From Owenia fusiformis (taxonomy: Eukaryota; Annelida; Polychaeta; Sabellida; Oweniidae): 64,000 bases of DNA. This document shows, piece after piece, positions 5,550 through 53,530 of the stretch; the stretch's first letter is position 1; each line of letters begins with the position of its first letter. The stretch spans positions 248,001 to 312,000 of the forward strand of contig CAIIXF020000005.1 of assembly GCA_903813345.2 (NCBI GenBank). Direction: 5' to 3'. Made by a program: the position numbers and the translations under genes. Under the pieces are notes generated by a model. The model did no database searches. It saw only the letters and a list, made by a program, of their open reading frames with translations, and was not told the DNA's origin.

Positions 5550-6108
5550 AGAATCATGTTGGTTGGACTATACTACTTTACATGAATATTATGACTCTAA
5601 CATATGAATCAGTTTAAACGTTTAGACTTTGTTGTTTAGAAATGCACGGATCTGGGGTTTATGGGGTTTTGTAATTGTGAGGTAACATTCCGTCCAAAAC
5701 CATGATTCTGGTTAAGATTAATAAGTTAGAAACAAAAGGTTGGTATTTCATCGTTTGGAGAATCTGAGACCAACATCTGAGGTATGTTACTCCAAGTGAG
5801 TATGAATTGTTTACCTGCCTTTTTTACAAGTGATTGTAAATAAGCGAATAATATAAGGGTGATTTATGAACCTCTTACTGTAAGGTATACTGACAATGTT
5901 ATATCATATCGGCCACTGATAAGAAAATGTATTTTGGTTTCGTTTTGATATTAAGTGGGACATCTTAACAAATCAACTATCAGACAACTATACTATGAAC
6001 TCAAATGGAGGGATTATACTGACTAATATTACGATACAAACAGGGTTACAACCGAGAAAATGTTGAATAAATGACTTTCTACATACCTACATCAGACAAC
6101 AAATTATA
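5550..6108. other. Upstream region of the trefoil gene
   Basis: No repeat or clear core promoter was recognised between the tRNA-like element and the ATG at 6109. The 5' UTR and any upstream non-coding exon are not defined. Confidence 0.3.
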
Positions 6109-9100
6109 ATGTGGCCTCTGCTTGTTTTCCTTATCGGACTGAATGCTGCTGTGATATCAAAACATCAAGGTAAATCATTGTTCATATCATGGTGAGGGTC
6201 TATGAACAAAAGGGCCCATGCGTATGTATGTAATCATTCACAAATACAGATGTTGCATTGAGACACTGGCGTTTAACGTATCTCAAACATCATGCCTAGT
6301 AACACAAAACTCACGGCACATGTATCTCTATGGAGTTTTATTAAATCATTTGTTTTTATTCATTGATGGTTTTCTAAACCATGAATGATCTGCATTTTAA
6401 TCAAAAACAAGATGCTTCGATTAAGTGGCGACAAATGGAGCGCTCAAATCTCCTATGAACTACATGCCTGGGGAATATCCTCATTGAGTGGGAAATCCAC
6501 ATTTCCATTTCCTCATTGAGTGGGAAATCCACATTTCCAACACAATTAGGATGGGGAGAAGGGGTAAGTTTTGTTTGAAAACCCAATGATGTAACACCTA
6601 CGTTTCACAGTTAAATAATTCTCAAGTGTTTCAGCTAGTGTTATTTTCACAAATACATATATAATCGTATACCATACGCAAATAAACAACAAGATCCACC
6701 ATGTCTAAAATGCAATGATTGCTACGTAACATCGACCTCCTCACAGAAATATTAACTTTTGTATAAGCAAAATGGTTGAAATGATTCAACATATTTATAG
6801 AAAAAACTTTTAAATTCAGACTGCACCTATGTAAAGACGTGTGATCACACTGAAATAAGACGCATCACTATAAGTAACTTTAAGCTTATATAATGTTCCT
6901 TAAAGTCCCCGTCTAAAGTTTGAAAATATTTTTTTTAACATTCATTTACTATTTGTCAGGACTTAAAAAGTGATTTTAGAGATTTTTGAACAAAAAAAAA
7001 TTTTTGAAAAAAAAGTTGTGAGCATTTCATTTCTCAAATATTCAAATTTCCCGCCATTTTCAAAAAATGTTGAAATTTCTTAATCATCAAATATTTCTTA
7101 ATGCATTTCAAAAAAGATTATCTTTTTAACACCAATGCAAATATTGAACAAAGGACACTCTATTTAAACAATAAAATGCCATATTTGATGGGCCACTTCA
7201 ATGTTTTAGCATATCAAAAATATTTTGAAACATTAGTGATGTCACTAAGGTAGCAAAAACTTTTTGAAAAAAATTGGAATTTTTTTTTCGATGTCAATCT
7301 TTTCTAAATATGCTAGACTTTCATAAAAACCCAATGTTGATAGTCTAACCAGGTTAAAAGGAAGCATAAATTATGTTTTAGATATCATTGTACCATTGGT
7401 TTCTATGAGAACTAAAATTTTGAAATGCATTTTTCTCAGAACCATTTTCATGCACTGATAAGTTCATTTCTCGCTTATTTATGAACCGATTTTCTTAATT
7501 TTTTCGGCAAAAAACATGGGAGGATGAATGCTATGCATTGGTATGAATTGTGGCTAATTAGAAGATATGAGTGACCTCTAAAAGTTGGTTTTAAATAAAT
7601 TCACAAATTTTGGAACAAAAAGTCTGTCAAAAACCACATACTGTATCACACTTTGATAACATTGGGTAAGACTACAATATAAGCCAAAGTGGTTTAAACT
7701 TTATATGGGGCCTTTAATGGTCCTCAAAAATACAGGAAATGTTGTTATTTAGTATACTTTACATTGATAACACAACACAAAAATATGAGCTGCGATTGCT
7801 ACGTCGTTTCTATCTACTCTTAGGTATCTGTTACGTTATCACTATCACTTTGCTACGTCGAAGTAGAATAATTTGACAGAATGACTGATTTATTCCAACA
7901 AATCTTCCAAATATACTATCTGACCAATGTTCTATATAAATAAAAGCCCAAGTCGTATATATTTTTAAAATGGAGTCCATGTAAATGAATTTAACCATGG
8001 GCTTTCAACTAGAAGGGTAGGCAACTTCCCATTTTTCACACATAAGCATTGCCTTTGGGTTTTCAAAATTGGAGAATGTACACATTCAAAGGAAAACCTT
8101 ATTTTGTACTTTTTATGGATGGTTTAAAGAATTAACTCAAAAATAAAAACATGATTATCTACATACATGTTGATAATTTGATAAAAAATGGAATTCATCA
8201 TAATTGTGACAATACACAAAGCGAACATTCTCCCACAAATTATGTTTTTATTGGAATGTGTTCTTGAATAATTACCCACAATGCAATATTCGAAGAGAAC
8301 ATCTTGATACCTCTTATTCTTATTGGTCTTTTTTGTTTACTTTTACATGAGATTGAATGTATCTTATGCTTTAATCATATTGAAAATTTATTTTTATTCA
8401 AAATAATACTAAAACATATACATTTATCTACTACTTTTTGAAATATTATTTACCATAAAAGGGAAGCATGGCATTGCTCATTTTGAAGGTCCCATGTTTA
8501 TTACACAGAGTTAATTGAAAGCCCATGATATAACTTACCTTAAATTCTACTTTAAAGTTGTTCATAGGAAATACATGGCGTCTGCTGAAAATCTTACAAT
8601 ATGCAAAGTTACTCACTCACCGATCAACGTGTATACTTAATTTATAGCCAGTTTATTGAATCATCGATGTATTGATTAAAGTCACATTACTTGTGCTAGA
8701 AAAATACACCAAATGAATTATAATATATAGGATTTAATAAAAACCCATAGAGATGCATGTGCCGTGAGTTTTGTGCTACTAGGCATGATGTTTGAGATAC
8801 GTTAAACGCCAGTGGAGAAGGAGTGATGTAGATGCATGGTTGACGTTTTTAAATCTGACGGTACAGACGCAATCGATAAATATCATACCACATCACGTGA
8901 TATTTTCATATTGACAGTATATAAAGCATAAACATACTCCTCAAAAACGTTAAGAACCAGTCTTTTTCCTCATAGGTTTACATGTTAAAACCCATGTATG
9001 TTTGAACTCTATTTTCTAAGCCCTAAACGAAAGAAAAACTGATAATGTAAATGGATATGTACATTGGCTCTAATCTCTATATTTCTGGAAATTTTCAATC

Positions 9101-12100
9101 AAGTTAATCTTTCCGTTACATTAGGTTTAAAATTGATGTCAAATTTGATGAATTAGAGAAGGTAGAACCCATGTAAAACATTTATCGGAGTATTTTTGAA
9201 CTTATTTTCTGACCCCCTGTGTTATTTCAATGAGAGGTTTTTGAGAAATAATTTTGACTTCGGAGACTAATAGCTTTGTAAAAACCGGAGAAATAAATCA
9301 ATTTAAATCGTAGCCAAGTTAGCAAATTTAAATTCAATTCGGTCTATTTAAATTTTTAGAGCAATCCGATGTATGGATATTTGGTTTACATAGCTTCTAC
9401 CATTTTTAAAAAAAAATATTAAAGACACCAATTTTTGATCTATTACAACGGAGAGATTTCTAAAATATAGAGAAAAGAGTCAAGGTGTATATTCATTTAC
9501 ATTATCAGCTTTTCTTTCGTTTCGGGCATAGAAAATAGAGTTCAAACATACATGAGGTTTAACATGTAAACCTATGAGGAAAAAGACTGGTTCTTAATTT
9601 TTGAGGAGTATAGTTGAGAACTCACACTTATATAGTAGTAAATACATGTATATTGGAAAACATCATTTATCTAGCTTTTCATCATGCACCCTAATTCTTT
9701 ATTCACCTTCTTTCATTTTGACCAACATCTGCAATCCACTTGTAAAATGTACAAACCTGAACATATGTCCAACATATAAATACAGAAAACCGGTAGAGGC
9801 CATACAGTTAGCTGATATCTTATACATGATCAAAAGTAAAGTTCATGAAATATTTTAAAGAAACAGAAATCGCCATGAACAGTTATAACTATACATCTAT
9901 GAATGATACATAATGGCACTGGTAAAACACTAGAAACATTATATTTCATTTTAGATGTTGAATGTCAAGGTTCAACAACAAAGTTACCATGTCCATATGG
10001 CATGAATGATACATAATGGCACTGGTAAAACACTAGAAACATTATATTTCATTTTAGATGTTCAATGTCAAGGTTCAACAACAAAGTTACCATGTCCATA
10101 TGGCATAAATGATACATAATGGCACTGGTAAAACACTAGAAACATTATATTTCATTTTAGATGTTCAATGTCAAGGTTCAACAACAAAGTTACCATGTCC
10201 ATATGGCATGAATGATACATAATGGCACTGGTAAAACACTAGAAACATTATATTTCATTTTAGATGTTCAATGTCAAGGTTCAACAACAAAGTTACCATG
10301 TCCATATGGCATGAATGATACATAATGGCACTGGTAAAACACTAGAAACATTATATTTCATTTTAGATGTTCAATGTCAAGGTTCAACAACAAAGTTACC
10401 ATGTCCATATGGCATGAATGATACATAATGGCACTGGTAAAACACTAGAAACATTATATTTCATTTTAGATGTTGAATGTCAAGGTTCAACAACAAAGTT
10501 ACCATGTCCATATGGCATAAATGATACATAATGGCACTGGTAAAACATTAGAAACATTATATTTCATTTTAGATGTTGAATGTCAAGGTTCAACAACAAA
10601 GTTACCATGTCCATATGGCATGAATGATACATAATGGCACTGGTAAAACATTAGAAACATTATATTTCATTTTAGATGTTGAATGTCAAGGTTCAACAAC
10701 AAAGTTACCATGTCCATATGGCATGAATGATACATAATGGCACTGGTAAAACATTAGAAACATTATATTTCATTTTAGATGTCCAATGTCAAGGTTCAAC
10801 AACAAAGTTACCATGTCCATATGGCATGAATGATACATAATGGCACTGGTAAAACACTAGAAACATTATATTTCATTTTAGATGTCCAATGTCAAGGTTC
10901 AACAACAAAGTTACCATGTCGATATGGCATGAATGATACATAATGGCACTGGTAAAACACTAGAAACATTATATTTCATTTTAGATGTTCAATGTCAAGG
11001 TTCAACAACAAAGTTACCATGTCCATATGGCATGCATGATACATAATGGCACTGGTAAAACATTAGAAACATTATATTTCATTTTAGATGTTGAATGTCA
11101 AGGTTCAACAACAAAGTTACCATGTCCATATGGCATGAATGATACATAATGGCACTGGTAAAACACTAGAAACATTATATTTCATTTTAGATGTTGAATG
11201 TCAATGTTCAACAACAAAGTTACCATGTCCATATGGCATGAATGCAGTACTGTCAACCCCCAAAGATTTTCTCGCGGGACAGATTTTTTAGACCCAGTGC
11301 CCAAAATTCGCGGGATTTTGCGGGACATCTACTAAATTCGCGGGATTTCGCGGGACATTTAAGGGATTTGCGTGATTGCACTAATAGGCCAAAATTTTTT
11401 TTATCAAATTCGCGGGATTTCGCGGGATCATTCGAGGGACAAACACCCTAATTGCGGGACAGTTAACAGGTGACCACCAAAAACTTCATAGAGGGACAGA
11501 TTTTTTAGACAAAGTGCCCTAAATTTGCGGGATTTCGCGGGACAGTCCACCTAAATTTGCAGGATGTCTCGGGACATTCAAGGTATTTGCGTGATTGGGA
11601 CTAATGTAAAAGCGTGTAAAAGTACTTAAATCAAACTTTCATATACTGATTAATCAAATATAATGCACAGTTACATTGTAACTTAAATAAACGTCAACAC
11701 AATACGCATAGGAATTTAATTAAACTTTATTGTAATTTATCAAAAACAAAAACCACGCTTCAGGTGTGAGTACCGTAATCTAACACGAAATTCAAAAATT
11801 CGGAACAATACTTTGCACTTCTGGCGTCGTGACCAACTATGAAACGCTTACCCCCATAAAATAATGTTATACGAGGGTATATCATAAAGTTCTCATGATA
11901 TCTCTCTAATTTTTTTATTTTTCAATATATTCTGATGAATTTTTCACAGAATGTGTAGTATAGATTGCTGTATTAATCTATCAACAAATATTTGGTATAA
12001 CAGAAATATTATTTAAGAAATGGTTGCCATGGTAACCGGAAATCAAGGCACCCGGGGCAAATAAAAGATCGTGCAGGGATAGCCCAAACTAACTATACAT

Positions 12101-15100
12101 AATAAGTTATCAAATAAGCTATGAAACACATCAAATTGTTAAATACCATGTATTCTTGACTGTTTTAAACTATTATAATTGTCATGTGAATTGTGTGATC
12201 TCATAATGGATGATTGTAATGCTTCATTAGAAGTGATGTTAGACACTACAACTGTTTTGTCAAGTATTCCAAGGAAAGTCGATTTTTCCACTTTAGTTCA
12301 TCTTAAATAAGTAATAGACTCCGCATAGGGTGTAATTATGTTGATATCTTTGCAACATATTTGTTTAAGATCATCTTTAGTATGAGCAAAGGACATCAAG
12401 GATTTTTCGAACTAAACTAAACTTTTTATCAGTGTGAATATTATTTTTCTGATGATCCCTGCATCCATGCATTATCTTACTCAGTCAAATCTGATCATTA
12501 AGCTTTGATTCTCAGAGTCTGGTATCACATCCAATGAAGCATGTAAGCATCCCCTATGACACCAAACAATCCACATGATCAATTTATTTTATAAAAGCAT
12601 TTAACGACATTACAGTTAACATTTTAATGTGTTTGGTAATTTATGAGAGTTTATTATGCCTGTAAATAAGGTTAATTTAGCTCATTCTCTCAATTATTTT
12701 TACTTGCCCCGGGTGCCTTGATTTCCGGTTACTATGGCAACCATTACTTATCTAATATTTCTGTTATACCAAATATTTTTTGATAGATTAATAAAGTATT
12801 ATATACTGCAGATTCTATGAAAATTTCATTAGATTATATTGAAAAATAAAAAAATTAGAGAGATATTATGAGAACTTTATGATATACCCTCGTATATTAA
12901 AATGTACCTATTCATATACTGTTTGAAAGCCCATGATATAGGGGTTCGATTAATCTACATCAAATTATAGGGAATGAGGTTACTTTTCTAGATAGGGTTT
13001 TTAGAAAAAAGGGTACCGGGTAGCAAATCCTCCATGCTGGGTTCAAACTTGGTACCCGGTCCAAAAACCGGGTATCAAAAAACGAAATATACGAATATAC
13101 AACATAATTAGATCATTAGAAAACGTGTAAGATTTGTTTTGAATTTACAAAAATGTATGTAACTTCCTTCAAAATTGAGCTAGAAGCTTCAAATAAAAGC
13201 ATTTTAAGGCTCTTTCTTCCTCTATCATCATGGTCACATTTCCATTGGTAATGAAGGGGGGGGATGCGATCGCACCCCCTCCTGGCTAGTACGCCAATGA
13301 CATTGTTAGACGATTTGAAAAACAAGACAAATCAATCTTACTCTATTTTCAATAGTTCGTATGTTGGTACGTGAATTGTTTTGATTATGATTTAAATCTG
13401 TAAATAGCTATCGTTGCTTTAGCAGAGAGGTGACGTGTGTTAATTTACATGATGCAACTTGTAAGATTTTGATTATCAATCATAATTTAAGTTATCCCAA
13501 TTTTCAAAAAATGTCCACTGAATTGTAAATTGTTATGTCTTACAATGTCATAGGTGTAGCCAGGGTACCGGGTACCAAGTTTAAACCCAGCATGGAGGAT
13601 TTACTACCCGGTACCCTGATTTTTCTACAAACCCTTTCTAGATATCAGCGTCCATTTATTGTAACTCGCGTTTGCTAACATTTGCTCACTTCTGAGATGA
13701 AGGCCACACGGGTAGTAAAAAGGCCAACGTTGTAACTATTTGTGACCTACATGTACATTGTACATCCCTATTTTCGTAATCAAAATGAAAGTTGAACCCT
13801 TCCTCTTTATTTTGATACCAAACAACAGCATGTTAGGTACTTAAAATTAGGTAAACTTTACTCCTCAAAAGTGCAAAAACTTAGCTTCTTATATAAGATA
13901 AGATAATCACAATATAGGGGATTGCAACAATTTCGGAAATTCGCGGAGGTCAAAGCCGTCATTTGCGGGAATTCGCGGGACATTGCGGGACACGCGAATT
14001 AGCCTAATTTTGATCAAATTCGCGGGATAATCCCGCCATTCGCGGGACACTTGACAGCTCTGTGAATGATACATAATGGCACTGGTAAAACATTAGAAAC
14101 ATTATATTTCATTTTAGATGTTGAATGTCAAGGTTCAACAACAAAGTTACCATGTCCATATGGCATGAATGATACATAATGGCACTGGTAAAACATTAGA
14201 AACATTATATTTCATTTTAGATGTTGAATGTCAAGGTTCAACAACAAAGTTACCATGTCCATATGGCATGAATGATACATAATGGCACTGGTAAAACACT
14301 AGAAACATTATATTTCATTTTAGATGTTCAATGTCAAGGTTCAACAACAAAGTTACCATGTCCATATGGCATGAATGATACATAATGGCACTGGTAAAAC
14401 ACTAGAAACATTATATTTCATTTTAGATGTTCAATGTCAAGGTTCAACAACAAAGTTACCATGTCCATATGGCATGAATGATACATAATGGCACTGGTAA
14501 AACACTAGAAACATTATATTTCATTTTAGATGTTCAATGTCAAGGTTCAACAACAAAGTTACCATGTCCATATGGCATGATGATACATAATGGCACTGGT
14601 AAAACACTAGAACATTATATTTCATTTTAGATGTTCAATGTCATAAGGTTCAACAACAAGTTACCATGTCCCTATGGCATGAATGATACATAATGGCACT
14701 GGGTAAACACTAGAAACATATATTTCATTTTAGATGTTCAATGTCAAGGTTCAACAAACAAAGTTACCATGTCCAATGGCTGAATGATACATAATGGCAC
14801 TGGTAAACACTAGAACATTATATTCTTTAGATTTCCAATGTCAAGGTTCAACAACAAAGTTACCATGTCCATATGGCATGAATGATACATAATGGCACTG
14901 GTAAAACACTAGAAACATTATATTTCATTTAGATGTTCAATGTCAAGGTTCAACAACAAAGTTACCATTGTCCATAATGGCATGAATGATACATAATGGC
15001 ACTGGTAAAACACTAGAAACTTATATTTCATTTTAGATGTTCAATGTCAAGTTCAACAACAACAAAGTTACCATGTCCATATGGCATGAATGATACATAA

Positions 15101-18100
15101 TGGCACTGGTAAAACACTAGAAACATTATATTTCATTTTAGATGTTCAATGTCAAGGTTCAACAACAAAGTTACCATGTCCATATGGCATGAATGATACA
15201 TAATGGCACTGGTAAAACACTAGAAACATTATATTTCATTTTAGATGTCCAATGTCAAGGTTCAACAACAAAGTTACCATGTCCATATGGCATGAATGAT
15301 ACATAATGGCACTGGTAAAACACTAGAAACATTATATTTCATTTTAGATGTTCAATGTCAAGGTTCAACAACAAAGTTACCATGTCCATATGGCATGAAT
15401 GATACATAATGGCACTGGTAAAACACTAGAAACATTATATTTCATTTTAGATGTTCAATGTCAAGTTCAACAACAAAGTTACCATGTCCATATCGCATGA
15501 ATGATACATAATGGCACTGGTAAAACACTAGAAACATTATATTTCATTTTAGATGTCCAATGTCAAGGTTCAACAACAAAGTTACCATGTCCATATGGCA
15601 TGAATGATACATAATGGCACTGGTAAAACACTAGAAACATTATAATTCATTTTAGATGTCCAATGTCAAGGTTCAACAACAAAGTTACCATGTCCATATG
15701 GCATGAATGATACATAATGGCACTGGTAAAACACTAGAAACATTATATTTCATTTTAGATGTTCAATGTCAAGGTTCAACAACAAAGTTACCATGTCCAT
15801 ATGGCATGAATGATACATAATGGCACTGGTAAAACACTAGAAACATTATATTTCATTTTAGATGTTCAATGTCAAGGTTCAACAACAAAGTTACCATGTC
15901 CATATGGCATGAATGATACATAATGGCACTGGTAAAACACTAGAAACATTATATTTCATTTTAGATGTTCAATGTCAAGGTTCAACAACAAAGTTACCAT
16001 GTCCATATGGCATGAATGATACATAATGGCACTGGTAAAACACTAGAAACATTATATTTCATTTTAGATGTTCAATGTCAAGGTTCAACAACAAAGTTAC
16101 CATGTCCATATGGCATGAATGATACATAATGGCACTGGTAAAACACTAGAAACATTATATTTCATTTTAGATGTCCAATGTCAAGGTTCAACAACAAAGT
16201 TACCATGTCCATATGGCATGAATGATACATAATGGCACTAGTAAAACACTAGAAACATTATATTTCATTTTAGATGTTCAATGTCAAGGTTCAACAACAA
16301 AGTTACCATGTCCATATTGCATGAATGATACATAATGGCACTGGTAAAACACTAGAAACATTATATTTCATTTTAGATGTTCAATGTCAAGGTTCAACAA
16401 CAAAGTTGCCATGTCCATATGGCATGAATGATACATAATGGCACTGGTAAAACACTAGAAACATTATATTTCATTTTAGATGTCCAATGTCAAGGTTCAA
16501 CAACAAAGTTACCATGTCCATATGGCATGAATGATACATAATGGCACTGGTAAAACACTAGAAACATTATATTTCATTTTAGATGTTGAATGTCATGAAT
16601 AAGGTTCAACAACAAAGTTACCATGTCCATATGGCATGAATGATACATAATGGCACTGGTAAAACACTAGAAACATTATAATTCATTTTAGATGTTCAAT
16701 GTCAAGGTTCAACAACAAAGTTACCATGTCCATATGGCATGAATGATACATAATGGCACTGGTAAAACACTAGAAACATTATATTTCATTTTAGATGTTC
16801 AATGTCAAGGTTCAACAACAAAGTTACCATGTCCATATGGCATGAATGATACATAATGGCACTGGTAAAACACTAGAAACATTATATTTCATTTTAGATG
16901 TTCAATGTCAAGGTTCAACAACAAAGTTACCATGTCCATATGGCATGAATGATACATAATGGCACTGGTAAAACACTAGAAGCATTATATTTCATTTTAG
17001 ATGTCCAATGTCAAGGTTCAACAACAAAGTTACCATGTCCATATGGCATGAATGATACATAATGGCACTGGTAAAACACTAGAAACATTATATTTCATTT
17101 TAGATGTTCAATGTCAAGGTTCAACAACAAAGTTACCATGTCCATATGGCATGAATGATACATAATGGCACTGGTAAAACACTAGAAACATTATATTTCA
17201 TTTTAGATGTTCAATGTCAAGGTTCAACAACAAAGTTACCATGTCCATATGGCATGAATGATACATAATGGCACTGGTAAAACACTAGAAACATTATATT
17301 TCATTTTAGATGTCCAATGTCAAGGTTCAACAACAAAGTTACCATGTCCATATGGCATGAATGATACATAATGGCACTGGTAAAACACTAGAAACATTAT
17401 ATTTCATTTTAGATGTCCAATGTCAAGGTTCAACAACAAAGTTACCATGTCCATATGGCATGAATGATACATAATGGCACTGGTAAAACACTAGAAACAT
17501 TATATTTCATTTTAGATGTTCAATGTCAAGGTTCAACAACAAAGTTACCATGTCCATATGGCATGAATGATACATAATGGCACTGGTAAAACACTAGAAA
17601 CATTATATTTCATTTTAGATGTCCAATGTCAAGGTTCAACAACAAAGTTACCATGTCCATATGGCATGAATGATACATAATGGCACTGGTAAAACACTAG
17701 AAACATTATATTTCATTTAGATGTTCAATGTCAAGGTTCAACAACAAAGTTACCATGTCCATATGGCATGAATGATACATAATGGCACTGGTAAAACACT
17801 AGAAACATTATATTTCATTTTAGATGTCCAATGTCAAGGTTCAACAACAAAGTTACCATGTCCATATGGCATGAATGATACATAATGGCACTGGTAAAAC
17901 ACTAGAAACATTATATTTCATTTTAGATGTCCAATGTCAAGGTTCAACAACAAAGTTACCATGTCCATATGGCATGAATGATACATAATGGCACTGGTAA
18001 AACACTAGAAACATTATATTTCATTTTAGATGTCCAATGTCAAGGTTCAACAACAAAGTTACCATGTCCATATGGCATGAATGATACATAATGGCACTGG

Positions 18101-21100
18101 TAAAACACTAGAAACATTATATTTCATTTTAGATGTTCAATGTCAAGGTTCAACAACAAAGTTACCATGTCCATATGGCATGAATGATACATAATGGCAC
18201 TGGTAAAACACTAGAAACATTATATTTCATTTTAGATGTCCAATGTCAAGGTTCAACAACAAAGTTACCATGTCCATATGGCATGAATGATACATAATGG
18301 CACTGGTAAAACACTAGAAACATTATATTTCATTTTAGATGTTCAATGTCAAGGTTCAACAACAAAGTTACCATGTCCATATGGCATGAATGATACATAA
18401 TGGCACTGGTAAAACACTAGAAACATTATATTTCATTTTAGATGTTCAATGTCAAGGTTCAACAACAAAGTTACCATGTCCATATGGCATGAATGATACA
18501 TAATGGCACTGGTAAAACACTAGAAACATTATATTTCATTTTAGATGTTCAATGTCAAGGTTCAACAACAAAGTTACCATGTCCATATGGCATGAATGAT
18601 ACATAATGGCACTGGTAAAACACTAGAAACATTATATTTCATTTTAGATGTTCAATGTCAAGGTTCAACAACAAAGTTACCATGTCCATATGGCATGAAT
18701 GATACATAATGGCACTGGTAAAACACTAGAAACATTATATTTCATTTTAGATGTCCAATGTCAAGGTTCAACAACAAAGTTACCATGTCCATATGGCATG
18801 AATGATACATAATGGCACTAGTAAAACACTAGAAACATTATATTTCATTTTAGATGTTCAATGTCAAGGTTCAACAACAAAGTTACCATGTCCATATTGC
18901 ATGAATGATACATAATGGCACTGGTAAAACACTAGAAACATTATATTTCATTTTAGATGTTCAATGTCAAGGTTCAACAACAAAGTTGCCATGTCCATAT
19001 GGCATGAATGATACATAATGGCACTGGTAAAACACTAGAAACATTATATTTCATTTTAGATGTCCAATGTCAAGGTTCAACAACAAAGTTACCATGTCCA
19101 TATGGCATGAATGATACATAATGGCACTGGTAAAACACTAGAAACATTATATTTCATTTTAGATGTTGAATGTCATGAATAAGGTTCAACAACAAAGTTA
19201 CCATGTCCATATGGCATGAATGATACATAATGGCACTGGTAAAACACTAGAAACATTATAATTCATTTTAGATGTTCAATGTCAAGGTTCAACAACAAAG
19301 TTACCATGTCCAAATGGCATGAATGATACATAATGGCACTGGTAAAACACTAGAAACATTATATTTCATTTTAGATGTTCAATGTCAAGGTTCAACAACA
19401 AAGTTACCATGTCCATATGGCATGAATGATACATAATGGCACTGGTAAAACACTAGAAACATTATATTTCATTTTAGATGTTCAATGTCAAGGTTCAACA
19501 ACAAAGTTACCATGTCCATATGGCATGAATGATACATAATGGCACTGGTAAAACACTAGAAGCATTATATTTCATTTTAGATGTCCAATGTCAAGGTTCA
19601 ACAACAAAGTTACCATGTCCATATGGCATGAATGATACATAATGGCACTGGTAAAACACTAGAAACATTATATTTCATTTTAGATGTTCAATGTCAAGGT
19701 TCAACAACAAAGTTACCATGTCCATATGGCATGAATGATACATAATGGCACTGGTAAAACACTAGAAACATTATATTTCATTTTAGATGTTCAATGTCAA
19801 GGTTCAACAACAAAGTTACCATGTCCATATGGCATGAATGATACATAATGGCACTGGTAAAACACTAGAAACATTATATTTCATTTTAGATGTCCAATGT
19901 CAAGGTTCAACAACAAAGTTACCATGTCCATATGGCATGAATGATACATAATGGCACTGGTAAAACACTAGAAACATTATATTTCATTTTAGATGTCCAA
20001 TGTCAAGGTTCAACAACAAAGTTACCATGTCCATATGGCATGAATGATACATAATGGCACTGGTAAAACACTAGAAACATTATATTTCATTTTAGATGTT
20101 CAATGTCAAGGTTCAACAACAAAGTTACCATGTCCATATGGCATGAATGATACATAATGGCACTGGTAAAACACTAGAAACATTATATTTCATTTTAGAT
20201 GTCCAATGTCAAGGTTCAACAACAAAGTTACCATGTCCATATGGCATGAATGATACATAATGGCACTGGTAAAACACTAGAAACATTATATTTCATTTAA
20301 GATGTTCAATGTCAAGGTTCAACAACAAAGTTACCATGTCCATATGGCATGAATGATACATAATGGCACTGGTAAAACACTAGAAACATTATATTTCATT
20401 TTAGATGTCCAATGTCAAGGTTCAACAACAAAGTTACCATGTCCATATGGCATGAATGATACATAATGGCACTGGTAAAACACTAGAAACATTATATTTC
20501 ATTTTAGATGTTCAATGTCAAGGTTCAACAACAAAGTTACCATGTCCATATGGCATGAATGATACATAATGGCACTGGTAAAACACTAGAAACATTATAT
20601 TTCATTTTAGATGTCCAATGTCAAGGTTCAACAACAAAGTTACCATGTCCATATGGCATGAATGATACATAATGGCACTGGTAAAACACTAGAAACATTA
20701 TATTTCATTTTAGATGTCCAATGTCAAGGTTCAACAACAAAGTTACCATGTCCATATGGCATGAATGATACATAATGGCACTGGTAAAACACTAGAAACA
20801 TTATATTTCATTTTAGATGTTCAATGTCAAGGTTCAACAACAAAGTTACCATGTCCATATGGCATGAATGATACATAATGGCACTGGTAAAACACTAGAA
20901 ACATTATATTTCATTTAAGATGTTCAATGTCAAGGTTCAACAACAAAGTTACCATGTCCATATGGCATGAATGATACATAATGGCACTGGTAAAACACTA
21001 GAAACATTATATTTCATTTTAGATGTTCAATGTCAAGGTTCAACAACAAAGTTACCATGTCCATATGGCATGAATGATACATAATGGCACTGGTAAAACA

Positions 21101-24100
21101 CTAGAAACATTATATTTCATTTTAGATGTCCAATGTCAAGGTTCAACAACAAAGTTACCATGTCTATATGGCATGAATGATACATAATGGCACTGGTAAA
21201 ACACTAGAAACATTATATTTCATTTTAGATGTTCAATGTCAAGGTTCAACAACAAAGTTACCATGTCCATATGGCATGAATGATACATAATGGCACTGGT
21301 AAAACACTAGAAACATTATATTTCATTTTAGATGTTCAATGTCAAAGTTCAACAACAAAGTTACCATGTCCATATGGCATGAATGATACATAATGGCACT
21401 GGTAAAACACTAGAAACATTATATTTCATTTTAGATGTCCAATGTCAAGGTTCAACAACAAAGTTACCATGTCCATATGGCATGAATGATACATAATGGC
21501 ACTGGTAAAACACTAGAAACATTATATTTCATTTTAGATGTCCAATGTCAAGGTTCAACAACAAAGTTACCATGTCCATATGGCATGAATGATACATAAT
21601 GGCACTGGTAAAACACTAGAAACATTATATTTCATTTTAGATGTTCAATGTCAAGGTTCAACAACAAAGTTACCATGTCCATATGGCATGAATGATACAT
21701 AATGGCACTGGTAAAACACTAGAAACATTATATTTCATTTTAGATGTCCAATGTCAAGGTTCAACAACAAAGTTACCATGTCCATATGGCATGAATGATA
21801 CATAATGGCACTGGTAAAACACTAGAAACATTATATTTCATTTTAGATGTCCAATGTCAAGGTTCAACAACAAAGTTACCATGTCCATATGGCATGAATG
21901 ATACATAATGGCACTGGTAAAACACTAGAAACATTATATTTCATTTTAGATGTCCAATGTCAAGGTTCAACAACAAAGTTACCATGTCCATATGGCATGA
22001 ATGATACATAATGGCACTGGTAAAACACTAGAAACATTATATTTCATTTTAGATGTCCAATGTCAAGGTTCAACAACAAAGTTACCATGTCCATATGGCA
22101 TGAATGATACATAATGGCACTGGTAAAACACTAGAAACATTATATTTCATTTTAGATGTCCAATGTCAAGGTTCAACAACAAAGTTACCATGTCCATATG
22201 GCAGCAATATATCGTCAAGTGAATGCGAGTACTACAACTGTTGCTATGACAATTCTTCATCTCCAATATGCTACCAAAGAGCACCAGGTGAGTACTCATA
22301 TCAGCAAGCATCCAGTTTCTCAGAAATACGATTTTATATTTCTTATTTCAATATGTAGACTAATGTGTTGGTATACCCTTTGCATTCGTTTGACTTCACT
22401 TCTTAAAAGAGAGCTTCGTCTTCAGTTTAACTAGACTCTGCACGCAGGGTAGTGTTGGTATGATATCGGAATCCAAATGTCTTCACATAAATTACCTGCA
22501 CTCTATTTAAAACATATTTCAGAATGTGTTAACTTAGCATGTGGAGATAATGAAACAACAACCATAGAATGCCCAGTCGATGATATGATCCGAATAGCAA
22601 GGGTGGGGAATGCTGCTCGAACAAATTGCAATGGGACGGATATATGTCTAGCTTATATTCGATACCCTAATAACACCAAAGCGAAATGCAATAATAAAAC
22701 AAAGTGTGCGTTACCAAACAAGACCTATGAAAATGGCCAGAGTGAACGATGCACAACATACGACGAGAGAGGAAAGGTCGTATACATTCCAACAACATCT
22801 CAATTTGTCTGCTTCAGATGTTATCCCATCCCAACTACTACAACTTCAACAACAACTACGGTATTACCAACCACTATAAGCCAGACTAGCTCTAACAGTA
22901 CTGTAGATGTACATGGCGGTTCAGGTAGGATGGTTATCCTTAGATCCTAACAACAGAATTATGGGGTGAAAAATATATATATTGGAGTTACATAAGTATC
23001 TCCATGGGCTTTCAATAGATTGAATGCCCATCGTATAAGATGAAGTAGTTTATTCAAAACAAAGATTAATTACCAACAAAATTATAAAAGAATTAAGATC
23101 AAAAGCTTTTCAAATATTAATTATTTATTCATATTTGACACTTGGGTGATTTGACACATTTGACATATTACAATTATTGAGCACATGTACAATGAATGAG
23201 TCAATAAAACGATAGGTTTCCGGGAGGTTTCGAGATGAGTTAACAAAAGAACGAGAATGCATGCAATGTTAAACGAAAATATCGTATACATGTATCAGAA
23301 TTAAAATGTTCCAAAATTAAATCATCTTTCTTTTCATGTAAAAAGGCCAATATCTAACATTAATCGATTATCACTTTTGCTTTATTTTGCAGATGTGGTC
23401 ATAATTTTTAACACATCCTGTAGTTTTAATTCTCAGCATAGTTGATCATGATTTCCATGGTATCCATTCTATTCTTATCTTTATTTGTTTACAACATAAC
23501 TTACCAATATGCTTTTTAACCTGTTTTGTTTTACTTAACCAGGTCTTAATATTCCACTGTTGCTCTACATTGTGGTCCCAGCAATCGTTGTTGTTGTCGT
23601 TGCGTTCATTATGTTGGGACTGTGGTACAAGTATCGCTATAAACGAAATGACAAAAGGTAATTTACCATCTAGCAAAGCCAGAAACTTGAATCTAACCCT
23701 CACTAATTCAATTCTAATCTTGACCTTGACCTTCACTTGACATTTCACTTATTAACTTCCAGTAAAACAAATAGCTTGAATTTTACTAAATGTACCATCA
23801 CGCCTTACCATCGACAAGGTACAGTCACGTGACAGTGACAAAATATACCGTAGTACACTTTTGATGTACTATGTCACTATAAACTGATTTTAAGCAAAGA
23901 CTATGATGTAGGTTTGATGAAGGTTTTCAAAATAAATTTGAGGAATACATAAAGCATTTCATGTTTGATTTCGCGTGTATTCGATTGACTGTACCTTGTC
24001 GATGGTTAGGCGTGACCATGTTATTTCAGATTATTGTTAGTGTTAATAAGCTGATATACACAATTCTCTTTTTGCTCTGCAACGATTAGTGGAATCAATT

Positions 24101-36400: not shown

Positions 36401-39400
36401 CGTTCATGAAGTTCGTAAATAGTCATTAGAAACTTGCAGCTACGTTCATTCCGTTCGCACACAGTTTAAAACCAGTTTTGAAGAACACAGTGGCAACTTG
36501 TTTGGTGTGATAGCTATATTTTTGCTAAGTCGTTCATAAGCAGTCTTTAATTCGTTCTTAATCAGTTTAAACCCATTTGCAATTAGTTCTACCTCATTCT
36601 CAATATGTCCTCAGACAGTTCAACTCGTTGTTAAAACGTCCCTAGTAGGATTGAAGTACGACGGTTCCGTTCACAGTACGTCCAAGTCGTCGTTAGTACG
36701 TTGTCACTCATTCTAATTGTAGAACATGACAACCACGAGAGCATTTTGAGCATGTTCTAAGTTCTAGAGGACCTACCTGTTCAAGTACGTTCGATGAAGT
36801 TGGTAAATAGACCCCAAACGGTTCTAAGTACGTCCAGTCCGTTCGTTCACAGTTGAAGCCCATTTTCGAAAATGTAGTGAGAACTAGTTTGGTATGATAG
36901 GGTTATATATTGTTCCTAAATTACTGTAGAATCGGCACTATGTGGCCATTTTGAAAATCAGCTTTCGAACAGAACTTCTACCCCATAAAGCATATGTGTA
37001 CAAAATATGAACAAAATTGGGCCAAAGGTATTTGAGTTATTGTCCGGATGGATGAATATATAGACGGAGACGTTCCCTATATGCCTAGGAACTTTGTTCA
37101 ATGGGATAATAATCTATACACTACTTCACCGGTGATCCGCTCGATTATGCTGGTTGAACCGTTTTGGTAACAAAATGTAGGACGTGGAAGGTACGACTTT
37201 TCTTTTTTCCTTATTTGACGCGTTGTAGGCAGAATCCACACAATGTTTTTCTCACAAACCTGTATTAGCATCATATGTTTTAGAAATTGCACATGTTTTT
37301 TCGCAAATATGTACATTTTCTTAAACTTATGATACTGATACACATTAGTGTTAAAAATGTTGTGGGAATTCTGTGTACAACGTGTGAAATAAGTAAAAAG
37401 AAAAACCGTACCTTCGATGTTCCGACATTTTTAGTCTTGCTTAAAAGACCCTGTACTCCCCCCCCCCCTTTATCCTTCTCTCTAGGGTCTTGTAACCACC
37501 AGTAAGACACTGATATGAATTATTCATGCTAGATGGTTATCTCTTAACACATTTTGATCAGCCAATCAGATTCTTTGTTGTTCTTAGAGCAATACATGGC
37601 TATGTTAGTGCCTCTTCACTGCCAAGAAAATAGTTCCTCATACTTGCGATTATATTTCCATGATTTTATCTTGTTGTGTATAGAAATACTTTTCTAAACT
37701 TAAATCCTTCTCTTAACAAAGGTTTAAAAGCATAAAAAAAGTATTACTAACTAAAACTCACTACAAGAAAGCATGTCTGGTGTATTGATATATCAAATAG
37801 TTCCAACCTCATTAATAATTCATGATTTCCGGATCTGTTTAGGAAGGTGGCAGCACCTGCATAAAATCAGTGGTTACAAGACTGTATATTGCAAGGTAAA
37901 GAGAGTGAAGGTGATGGGGGGGGTTGGATCAGTCTTTGAGCAAGACTACGACATTTTGTTACCAAAACGAACCATTTCGGTAACCAGCATAATCGAGAGG
38001 ATCACCAGTGTACTTATCATTTTAAATATTTCAATTCAAGACCTCGTAACAAACGAAAAATACAGCACTCTTGTATGTAAGTAAAGATTACCTTTGTGCT
38101 TTTTCCAAATTTCTTGTAATGAGATCATGATCCATATAAAAAAGACCTAGTCGAATTTGGTGGAATACCATGTCCAATTTATAGCCTAGCGTCACTGTTT
38201 TTTCACCTGTTTTACGGAACTGTGATAAACAATTCTCCTGAAAATATTACCAGAGATTATCAATCTACCTAATATTCAATAAAATCACGAAAAAAGTATT
38301 CACAAATCTTTTCTATTTAATCATACAACTTACAAAACATTGTGATATTTGATAAGAAATCTCAGCGCATCTTTAAAACGTATTAACACAACAAAATGTC
38401 ACCACATTCAAATGGTATCAAAAGTGCAACAATATTGTTAACTACCATCAAAAAACAGTTGATATAATGATGTGTCAACACTTCTTGGTGGCAACAATGA
38501 ACAAAAATAGATTTCACAAGTTCACTTACTTTGTCTCCAATTTTACAATAATATTCTGCTTTGTTCAACATGAAGTCTCGAACTTCTGTTTCGCCTAAAT
38601 TTTTCTCGGCATCCTCTATTTTACTATCAAGATCCTTCAGGTGTCCCTCGTTGGCTGCTCTCATCTTGGCAACAAGCTGCGTGTCTACCTTCCAGCCAAA
38701 CTCGGCTGCAACTTCTTCATAAAAGGGTGTCATATCTGAAATAGTAATTACTACGTTAGGTATGTATTTACTAAAATAACAGTACTGTCGCTTTAAAATG
38801 ATTAGTTGCCATGTTATATCCAGTTATGCATATATTTTATATTCAACAAGAAAATCCTATAGAATTTAGAACAAATTTGGTGAAATAGGGGTTTCATTAG
38901 GATTAAGAACATTAGGCATTTAGCAAAAAACAACAGGCGAACTTAAATCTTCAATATTTTGCCGCTAGCTTCGCTCACATAATTCTAAAATTATTCGCCG
39001 CTCACATTACCATTTTAATGAATGTTTCTCACTCGCTTTGATCTCATGCACAGCGGCTTAAACGTAAGAATATCTTGTATGATGTGTTTGTGAGTCGGGT
39101 GCCTAATGTGAGACTATGTCCTTTTGTTTAGAATATGTGCATTTTAATTGAGTAAACAAGGAATTGAAGCAAGACTACCTTGTTTAGAATGTACCCCCCC
39201 CCCCTCTCATTCATTTACAATTTACATTGAAATCAAAGATTGTCAAAGGAGTGTCTAACATAAATAAACTGTAAATGTAAATAAGTTACAAGCTAAGGAA
39301 CTTATGTGATTTTATGAAAAACAAAAATAAAAATAATCCACAAAAACACATTTGACATTTGATTCAGTGTAACAAGTAATAACAACAGTGTAAACTACAT

Positions 39401-42679: not shown

Positions 42680-42872
42680 GTGTAATATCTTCAACAACTT
42701 TGATGATGTACGAGTGATCAATAAGTAATGGACGCTTTTTTACACAGATACTTTTTATAGCACCCCAGTTGTCCGAAACCCAGTTGTCCGAAACCAGTTG
42801 TCCGAAACCCAGTTCTCCGAAACCCATTTTTCCGAAACCCAGTTCTCCGAAACCCAGTTGTCCGAAAAATTT
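42680..42872. repeat. Dispersed element with 15-bp minisatellite, copy 1
   Basis: A flank with GTAATGGACGCTTTTTTACA is followed by about seven units of CCCAGTTGTCCGAAA/CCCAGTTCTCCGAAA at 42763-42872. The same flank and minisatellite occur in reverse orientation at 48840-48945 and 49850-49905. Confidence 0.8.
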
Positions 42873-48839: not shown

Positions 48840-48945
48840 TTTTCGGAGAACTGGGTCGGAGAACTGGGTTTCGGACAACTGGGTTTCGGAGAACTGGGTT
48901 TCGGACAACTGGGTTTCGGAGAACTGGGTTTCGGACAACTGGGTT
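48840..48945. repeat. 15-bp minisatellite, copy 2
   Basis: Alternating units GGTTTCGGACAACTG and GGTTTCGGAGAACTG, in the reverse orientation to 42763-42872. Its flanking host element resumes at 49850, after the mariner-like insertion. Open frames here (TGFRTTGFRR) are repeat artefacts. Confidence 0.85.
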
Positions 48946-49808: not shown

Positions 49809-50049
49809 AATGATGTATCACTGGTGAGAAAATCAAGGGGATTGGTGTATAAAAACGTCTGTGTAAAAAAGCGTCCATTACTCAATTTATTGATCACCCC
49901 TCGTTAAATTGCATAATTTTACTCTAAAGATGGTATGGTAGAAATAGTGCCAGCTTTTTCCAACTTTTGATATTGGAGCTGATGATAACATCATAATAAA
50001 TCAACTACCCTATGTGCAATTTTGCTACTGAAAATTTGTATATACAGTG

Positions 50050-52300
50050 CCCTTAAGGTAGACCATGTCACACCACCATGACACACCTGAGATTTATATA
50101 TGCCTTTACTTTAGACCATGTTACACCTGAGACTTGCATATGCCTTTAAGGTAGACCATGACAAACCTGACGACCTGAGATTTACATATGCCCTTAAGGT
50201 AGACCATGTCACACCAATATGACACACCTGAGATTTATATACAGTGCCCTTAAGGTAGACCATGTTACACCACCTTGACACATCTGAGATTTATATATGC
50301 CTTTACATTAGACCATGTTACACCTGAGACTTGCATATGCCCTTAAGGTAGACCATGTTACACCACCATGACACACCTGAGATTTATATATGCCTTTAAT
50401 TAGACCATGTTACACCTGAGACTTGCATATGCCCTTAAGGTAGACCATGTCACACCAACATGACACACCTGACGACTTGAGATTTACATATGCCTTTAAG
50501 GTAGACCATGTTACACCAACGTGACACACCTGACGACTTGAGATTTACATATGCCTTTGAGGTAGACCATGTCACACCAACATGACACACCTGACGACCT
50601 GAGATTTACATATATCTTTAAGGTAGACCATGTCACACCAACATGACACACCTGACGACCTGAGATTTACATTTGCCTTTAAGGTAGACCATGTCACACC
50701 ACCATGACACACCTGACGACCTGAGATTTACATATGCCTTTAAAGTAGACCATGTCACACCAACATGACACACCTGACGACTTGAGATTTACATATGCCC
50801 TTAAGGTAGACCATGTTACACCAACATGACACACCTGACGACCTGAGATTTACATATGCCTTTGAGGTAGACCATGTTACACCAACGTGACACACCTGAC
50901 GACCTGAGATTTACATATGCCTTTGAGGTAGACCATGTTACACCAACATGACACACCTGACGACTTGAGATTTACATATGCCCTTAAGGTAGACCATGTT
51001 ACACCAACATGACACACCGGACGACCTGAGATTTACATATGCCTTTGAGGTAGACCATGTTACACCAACATGACACACCTGACGACCTGAGATTTACATA
51101 TGCCTTTAAGGTAGGCCATGTTACACCAACATGACACACCTGACGACTTGAGATTTACATACGCCCTTAAGGTAGACCATGTTACACCAACATGACACAC
51201 CTGACGACCTGAGATTTACATATGCCTTTGAGGTAGACCATGTTACACCAACATGACACACCTGACGATCTGAGATTTACATATGCCTTTAAGGTAGACC
51301 ATGTTACACCAACATGACACACCTGACGACTTGAGATTTACATATGCCCTTAAGGTAGACCATGTTACACCTGAGATTTACATATGCCCTTAAGGTAGAC
51401 CATGTAACACCAACATGACACACCTGACGACCTGAGATTTACATATGCCTTTAAGGTAGACCATGTTACACCAACATGACACACCTGACGACCTGAGATT
51501 TACATATGCCTTTAAGGTAGACCATGTCACACCACCATGACACACCTGACGACCTGAGATTTACATATGCCTTTAAGGTAGACCATGTTACACCACCATG
51601 ACACACCTGACGACCTGAGATTTACATATGCCTTTAAGGTAGACCATGTCACACCACCATGACACACCTGACGACCTGAGATTTACATATGCCTTTAAGG
51701 TAGACCATGTCACACCAACGTGACACACCTGACGACCTGAGATTTACATATGCCTTTGAGGTAGACCATGTTACACCAACATGACACACCTGACGACCTG
51801 AGATTTACATATGCCTTTAAGGTAGACCATGTCACACCACCATGACACACCTGACGACCTGAGATTTACATATGCCTTTTAATTAGACCATGTCACACCA
51901 ACATGACACACCTGACGACTTGAGATATGCCCTTAAGGTAGACCATGTCACACCAACATGACACACCTGACGACTTGAGATTTACATATGCCCTTAAGGT
52001 AGACCATGTCACACCAACATGACACACCTGACGACTTGAGATTTACATATGCCCTTAAGGTAGACCATGTTACACCAACATGACACACCTGACGACCTGA
52101 GATTTACATATGCCTTTAAGGTAGACCATGTCACACCACCATGACACACCTGACGACCTGAGATTTACATATGCCTTTAAGGTAGACCATGTTACACCTG
52201 AGATTTACATATGCATGTCACACCAACATGACACACCTGAAGACCTGAGATTTACATATGCCTTTAAATTAGACCATGTTACACCTGAGACTTGCATATG
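50050..52300 (+). repeat. 61-bp tandem array
   Basis: About 36 units of AAGGTAGACCATGTTACACC followed by AACATGACACACCTGACGAC and CTGAGATTTACATATGCCTTT. Units at the left edge (50050-50400) and right edge lack the GACGAC segment and are more diverged; the centre is homogeneous. The ORF at 52128-52376 is a product of the array. Confidence 0.95.
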
Positions 52301-53530
52301 CATGAATGTGAATCATACCTTTAATCCACATTTTTATTTAGGAGAATTAAGAATTTTCCCTTTGAAGAATGGATAACCTCACCATTTGAGAACATATCTG
52401 ATCACGGACCCTATGAGCACGCGTGATGAGGGATAATCACACTTAGTATAGTATAGTCAGTATATTGGTATTTAAGTAAGAAAAAAAGAATGCATTGGAA
52501 TGCCAATTTTCATTTTCCTATCAATTTTATCATCCGTGTATATTTAATTCTGCTTTTAAGTATACTATGTAGCAGCAGAGATGTGATTTTCCTTAAGTGA
52601 GATCGAGTCGTATTTAGGATGTAAAGGTTCTCTTAGGTAGACCATGCCAACAAGGCCCCATGAAAAGTTTCACCACTTTGGTTTGAAGTATAGCCGTACC
52701 AAATATTAGCAAGATAACAAAAGTGTTTTATAGAAAATTTCTCAAACTGTTTTTAATTACATGAACTTTTTTATTAAACAATTTTATTCATTTCTTCAGA
52801 AAATAACTTGGGGATACAAGTCGAAAGCCTTGATAAAAATTCTCTGAAGAAATGAATAAAGTTGTTTTAATATCTTTAAACCAGAGAGATGAACTTACAT
52901 AGAACTACGTGTACATGAAAATTGAATTTAAAGCAAAGGGTTGGATCAATTTGAATCAATAGAAATTAAAAAGCATATAAAAGTATATATGAAATCCCAC
53001 GCCCGTAAAACAGAGAGTATGAACTGAGGGGGGGGGGGGTTCGAAGATTTCCCAACTCAAGTTAACTTATACACTTTTAAGGTATGACACCTATTTAAAA
53101 GGAACGTCACTACCTTGCAAACTGCAAACACTCTTTTTGCTATAAACCATGAAGTGAAGGTCTACGCGACCTGTTATAAAATCATACATAATCCTGACAA
53201 AATGTATGTCATTATAGTTTTCAATAAGTTAAAAAACGTTATAAAAATAACAAATAATGAGGATATACAGCGAGTAAAGTTAGTTCTCCACTGCTTGGTT
53301 TATAGTAAAAGAGATTAAATTTTGCAGATTTGTTGAATTTCAATGCAGGAATCATACCCCCCCCCCCATCAACCCATTTTGTCCGTTTACGGTCCTGAGT
53401 CTGAAGAGCTGGAGAATTTTTGCAGATTTAACTCTTGTTTGTTGTACCAATCTTGGTTATACATGTATTTTATCCCTACTTATATATTGGAAATAAAAGA
53501 TGCATTTTCATTTACATCGTCATTACAATT
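52301..53530. other. No gene seen; one small hairpin
   Basis: A hairpin at 52776-52867 has arms AAACAATTTTATTCATTTCT and its near complement. A G homopolymer run lies at 53028-53039. This is also the region just downstream of the FReD gene stop. Confidence 0.4.

Follow-up and report, generated by a model that had tools for sequence, protein, structure and literature searches.

A very large mirage-type minisatellite carrying 92 copies of a splice acceptor in front of a trefoil exon

The window analyzed here, a stretch of 64,000 nucleotides of contig CAIIXF020000005.1 (positions 248,001 to 312,000), contains a gene whose trefoil-encoding exon 2 is directly preceded by a tandem array of 92 copies of a 103-bp unit (window positions 9899-22203, 12.3 kb). 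Each unit comprises the end of intron 1 and the start of exon 2 of this very gene, and copy number 92, the last one, is the genuine acceptor with the start of the real exon. The array thereby belongs, as an extreme member, to the known class of minisatellites across intron/exon boundaries that were named "mirages" in amphioxus (PMC3087553, PMC3902484). Judging from the sequence, we consider it likely that the array is a tolerated mirage-type minisatellite of which the last acceptor is used by means of exon definition.

Structure of the array and of its host gene

Positions 1-56 of the unit are the end of intron 1 including the motif TTTTAG, and positions 57-103 correspond to nucleotides 1-47 of exon 2. 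This agrees with the original prediction, which had described 53 nt of intron, 47 nt of exon and an ATG, and had proposed that the array was seeded from the gene's own splice junction; the unit is the junction sequence, and its last copy is the real junction. As had also been stated, the array stops where the genuine exon 2 continues, with the border reading GGCA/GCAATA at the real exon (slashes mark borders and splice positions) versus GGCATGAATG inside the array. Of the 83 units that could be placed in an ungapped walk, 33 match the consensus exactly, and in another 26 a T>C exchange at position 61 is the sole difference. Chance cannot account for an array of such size and identity.

The acceptor core reads TTTAG/AT in 90 of the 92 copies and TTTAAG/AT in the remaining two, the AG of the real acceptor being located at 22154-22155. 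All 91 upstream copies have retained the AG, which bears out the claim that about 91 decoys lie ahead of the real exon. In the 83 units placed without gaps, variation affects 8 of the 56 positions derived from the intron and 7 of the 47 derived from the exon, one variable position falling in the T-run before the AG. Both parts of the unit thus vary, and selection on the decoys is therefore not apparent.

Next to the array, the gene itself could be traced over four exons (Table 1), separated in the case of intron 1 by 15,986 nt and in the case of intron 2 by 235 nt, and all four exons have an intact donor. The donor of exon 1, AAG/GTAAAT at 6170, matches the consensus at 8/9 positions, and its surroundings (CATCAAG/GTAA) are conserved in the two paralogs described below, C9A and C9B. 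The 44-residue peptide of exon 2, which is the same in C9A, scored 23.6 bits against Pfam Trefoil (cut-off 21), and longer queries from the array-bearing gene scored 18.3 and 19.4 bits, i.e. under this cut-off. The similarity of the exon 3 domain to SUEL lectin is weak (14.5 bits with a cut-off of 31.4, scored in a paralog).

Table 1. Features of the array and its host gene (window coordinates)
Feature	Position	Strand	Basis
Exon 1, coding part (MWPLLVFLIGLNAAVISKHQ + 1 nt)	6109..6169	+	Homologous exon 1 in both C9 paralogs
Array, left part, 13.1 copies	9899..11244	+	Tandem Repeats Finder (period 103, 98% match), border inspection
Transposon-like insertion, 2,818 bp, inside one unit	11245..14062	+	Ends CAGTACTGTCAA / CAGAGCTGTCAA, target duplication TGAATG
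Array, right part, 79.0 copies, the last being the real acceptor and 47 nt of exon 2	14063..22203	+	Tandem Repeats Finder (period 103, 98% match), ungapped walk, genome search
Five units, 92-97% identical, rich in 1-bp indels	14577..15085	+	Genome search, unit comparison
Block duplicated at 2,580-bp distance	15495..20299	+	15495-17719 vs 18075-20299: 3 mismatches in 2,225 bp
Exon 2, 132 nt, phase 1-1, trefoil domain	22156..22287	+	Donor CAG/GTGAGT at 22288, 9/9 consensus
Exon 3, cysteine-rich domain, then Thr-rich stretch	22523..22924	+	SUEL lectin-like
Exon 4, transmembrane-like segment (by eye)	23543..23657	+	Homologous stretch in C9A (39 residues, 79%); donor at 23658

Paralogs, origin and size of the array

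A search of the unit as DNA against the 498-Mb assembly, which very common words may escape, yielded 94 matches, namely the 92 copies of the array and two single ones on contig C9. The latter are the corresponding junctions of C9A and C9B, each present once, with identities of 89 and 91% to the unit between its positions 28 and 103. Both paralogs contain exon 1 and exon 2 in the same order with single-copy junctions, intron 1 measuring about 4.2 kb in one and 7.8 kb in the other, and the 103-bp array was found at neither locus. That both kept the two exons also supports the splicing of exon 1 to exon 2 assumed in the original prediction. When exons like exons 1 to 3 were sought more widely (12 loci, 104,907 bp), none of the 19 family exon stretches overlapped a tandem repeat with a period of at least 25. 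A dispersed satellite that landed at this place by chance is not supported as an explanation, since the array occurs at only one locus among the 94 matches found.

Unit positions 61-62 read CC in both paralogs, which is the same as in the real exon of the array-bearing gene. Among the 90 TTTAG copies of the array, 33 contain CC, 47 TC and 10 TG at these positions; 8 of the 10 TG copies lie near the left end, and CC is abundant at the right end. These data fit an array that probably arose by local duplication after the gene duplication and then grew and was homogenised internally, while an older array that was lost from both paralogs is conceivable as an alternative history. In a first step, a 103-bp stretch over the junction of intron 1 and exon 2 would have been tandemly duplicated in one gene copy, and amplification to about 92 units may have followed via unequal exchange, slippage and block duplication. 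The junction between units (GGC/ATG) has one base, the A, in common with the right border, and a short-homology origin of the array is possible.

It might also be asked whether the array grew unopposed in a dying gene copy, which we regard as improbable. In the paralogs, the reading frame starts at an ATG located 34 codons before the donor of exon 1, whereas the array-bearing gene contains a stop in that frame (6040-6169), and its own ATG at 6109 is not conserved, the paralogs having CTA/TTG at the aligned site. It seems, on the basis of this alignment, that the array-bearing copy starts at a different ATG (6109) than its paralogs. Arguments against decay of the gene are its intact donors and its exons 2 and 3, which are open and differ from those of the two paralogs with a dN of 0.105-0.120 compared to a dS of 0.30-0.35.

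The two parts of the array are separated by a transposon-like insertion with 12-bp inverted ends (10/12 alike). Its first 146 bp were found with 99-100% identity at 40 places of the genome including 11245 itself (577 candidates, of which 40 were scored), and the family looks young and abundant. As the insertion splits a unit, it is younger than the units flanking it. To the left of the array, intron 1 also contains two inverted-repeat pairs, one at 6264-6436 and 8640-8814 (arms 80% identical) and one at 8934-9092 and 9456-9611 (arms 90% identical), which are perhaps further inserted elements.

The exact copy number is uncertain because of the noisy stretch at 14577-15085, which looks like unpolished long-read sequence, and because of the near-identical block that recurs 2,580 bp away, both copies of which contain a 109-bp variant unit. 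Both features are what would be expected if the length of the array were partly an assembly artefact and the true copy number other than 92, an explanation that we hold to be less likely but to be taken seriously, and which bears on how many copies there are, not on whether they exist, so that it can hold alongside the other readings discussed here. Against it speak the ordered unit variants, the differing variant mix at the two array ends and the insertion with its target duplication within one unit, none of which would be made by a simple artefact. The insertion that splits the array, the five noisy units, the duplicated block and the weak donor within the unit (see below) had been overlooked in the original prediction.

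Decoy acceptors and the choice of the last one

The original prediction had offered three ways in which the gene could deal with the decoys, namely to suppress them, to always use the last one or to use them as a brake on expression. Of these, using the last one has the best support, which comes from the strong donor downstream of it and from published data on exon definition (PMC9225289). Exon 2 would be recognized across the exon, with the last acceptor being paired with the donor 132 nt downstream, and the array would be spliced out together with the 16-kb intron 1. The last acceptor would be favoured because it alone adjoins a strong donor. Exon 2 differs from the decoys in its downstream sequence, and its donor matches the consensus at 9/9 positions compared to 6/9 for the best donor of the unit, CTG/GTAAAA. 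In the array proper, with the transposon excluded, none of 546 GT dinucleotides reaches at least 7/9 positions of the donor consensus, and within the transposon 7 of 139 match it at 7/9 and none higher. Where introns flanking an exon are long, the sites nearest across the exon were described to be favoured, and the class with a long upstream and a short downstream intron mimics exon definition (PMC9225289). With 15,986 nt for intron 1 and 235 nt for intron 2, we place the gene beside this class. The mode of amplification, the use of the last acceptor and the neutrality of the array are what we infer from these comparisons.

Several points weigh against this interpretation. The upstream 3′ splice site was found to be preferred overall, and long introns on both sides are said to reduce this preference but not to reverse it (PMC9225289). 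Furthermore, 84 of the 90 acceptor cores have a CTG/GTAAAA donor at most 140 nt away, 78 of them giving a 70-nt pseudo-exon. In humans, internal tandem repeats located where exons meet introns can give rise to alternative splicing and to new introns (PMC2812944), and numerous unannotated intronic splice sites are usable (PMC10809524). The 91 upstream acceptors are transcribed first, and a small use of each could add up. In addition, the constraint on exon 2 since the gene duplication does not show that the exon was used after the array arrived.

If exon 1 is joined to the decoys, the resulting frame reaches MNDT and a stop in 79 of 91 cases (77 of the 89 TTTAG copies and both TTTAAG copies), as had been foreseen for decoys in general, and all 91 frames end within 33 residues. 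In-frame stops are also present in 83 of the 84 decoy acceptor-donor pairs. Together with the retained AGs and the changes in splicing ascribed to human repeats at exon-intron boundaries (PMC2812944), these stops might suggest a brake or timer, in which decoy acceptors and weak donors form poison pseudo-exons that lead some transcripts into nonsense-mediated decay, so that the length of the array sets the output. We assign little probability to this explanation: the two paralogs manage without an array, the decoy acceptors and donors vary no less than the rest of the unit, and regular splicing is reported to proceed unimpaired in amphioxus genes with mirages (PMC3087553). Slightly less probable still appears its extension to a length-tunable brake, in which some 90 identical decoys would compete with the real acceptor and a fast-changing copy number would set the output of the trefoil membrane protein between individuals.

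A fourth option, absent from the original prediction, is that exon 2, which is symmetric, could be skipped in frame. As this exon is 132 nt long and both of its borders are in phase 1, and as the join of exon 1 to exon 3 stays open through exon 3, the array might mainly cause the production of a protein without the trefoil domain. This is improbable given that exon 2 shows five synonymous and no non-synonymous differences to C9A (five and two, respectively, to C9B) and that it has kept a full-consensus donor and an unchanged acceptor.

Two further candidates were rejected. The array does not represent tandem coding exons, since nearly all possible pseudo-exons contain the in-frame stops mentioned above and no long open frame spans it: open frames of at least 60 amino acids in the right part occur only at its two ends, and of the frames of at least 75 amino acids listed for the whole window, none lies within the left part. 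There is no indication of recursive splicing either, since the acceptor is AG/AT rather than AG/GT. The unit acceptor likewise differs from the dual-specific AGGT of the UBC type, and the AGGT located within the exon part of the unit (AAG/GTTCAA) matches the donor consensus at 5/9 positions.

Competition between splice sites is commonly tested with few duplicated sites. An intron in which some 90 acceptors are nearly the same, and are distinguished mainly by their position and downstream context, constitutes a natural test of acceptor choice. RNA from the host species would directly gauge the strength of the protection that an exon receives from exon definition, the means by which the last acceptor of the array is likely to be used.

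Outside of this gene, Tandem Repeats Finder identified a second large array with mainly a 61-bp unit (50048-52304), and similar 15-bp tandem repeats are present in opposite orientation at 42764-42867 (CCCAGTTGTCCGAAA) and 48841-48945 (TTTCGGAGAACTGGG). Neighbouring genes include exons with Fibrinogen_C domains (53534-54886, minus strand; 95 and 49.5 bits) and an exon of the 26S proteasome subunit RPN7 (38386-38823, minus strand; 53.1 bits).

Relation to mirages and other repeats at exon boundaries

To the original prediction, a satellite seeded from a splice junction was not a known class. The amphioxus mirages, reported for Adh3, the globins BflGb6 and BflGb9, PGBD5 and troponin C (PMC3087553, PMC3902484), however, constitute such a class. 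In BflGb6, the 3′ end of an intron and the 5′ part of exon 2 are repeated (PMC3087553), which is exactly the anatomy of the array described here, and in general the amphioxus units cross a boundary between intron and exon in their host gene and adjoin the authentic exon. The present unit crosses such a boundary, is located at the authentic one and shares its sequence, and carries a splice signal. This signal is contained in all 92 copies, compared to many but not all of the amphioxus repeats. Unit identity is about 98%, compared to 81-100% in amphioxus. Data on Adh3 and RT-PCR (reverse transcription PCR) of globins suggest that mirages leave regular splicing undisturbed (PMC3087553). For PGBD5, repeats of 60 and 108 bp were described that are present 2 to 7 times, with troponin C cited as a further case (PMC3902484), and BflGb6 haplotypes contain 6 and 3 copies (PMC3087553). 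With 92 copies in 12.3 kb, the array is a very large mirage whose copy number lies above those of BflGb6 and PGBD5. Length instability is a feature of the amphioxus mirages, while the present array was read from a single assembly. The reported hosts are cephalochordates, whereas the Hox set of the array's host genome points to a spiralian, away from amphioxus. This is based on homeodomains on contig C1 (17.97-18.47 Mb), of which one is followed by KLTGP, which we take to be the Lox5 signature, and another is Lox4- or Lox2-like by a signature that is likewise presumed. Searches for COX1 and for the GFP and molluscan haemocyanin families yielded no match, and as the control genomes were also without a match for the latter two, these two results carry no information. 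At one end of this Hox cluster (C1:17970400-17971050), two homeodomains of posterior type, judged by eye, were found with match starts 351 bp apart.

An intronic repeat is also said to affect the splicing of ABCA7 (PMC5954066). The internal tandem repeats at exon-intron boundaries within human segmental duplications (De Grassi and Ciccarelli, 2009; PMC2812944) resemble the array in being minisatellite expansions at gene boundaries and in recently duplicated paralogs. They differ from it in that they consist on average of four 30-bp units and that half of them lie in coding exons and may stay in transcripts. The polyubiquitin gene UBC also contains repeated splice motifs in tandem within one gene, but there each repeat encodes a complete monomer and has an AGGT usable as donor or acceptor (PMC10809524), whereas the decoys of the array, with AG/AT, run into a stop.

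Within the literature searched, no report was found of a mirage of comparable size or of one in a spiralian. The array therefore suggests that mirage-type repeats extend beyond amphioxus and can attain the size of satellites, which bears on the proposal, made for the amphioxus repeats, that mirages give rise to new introns (PMC3087553).

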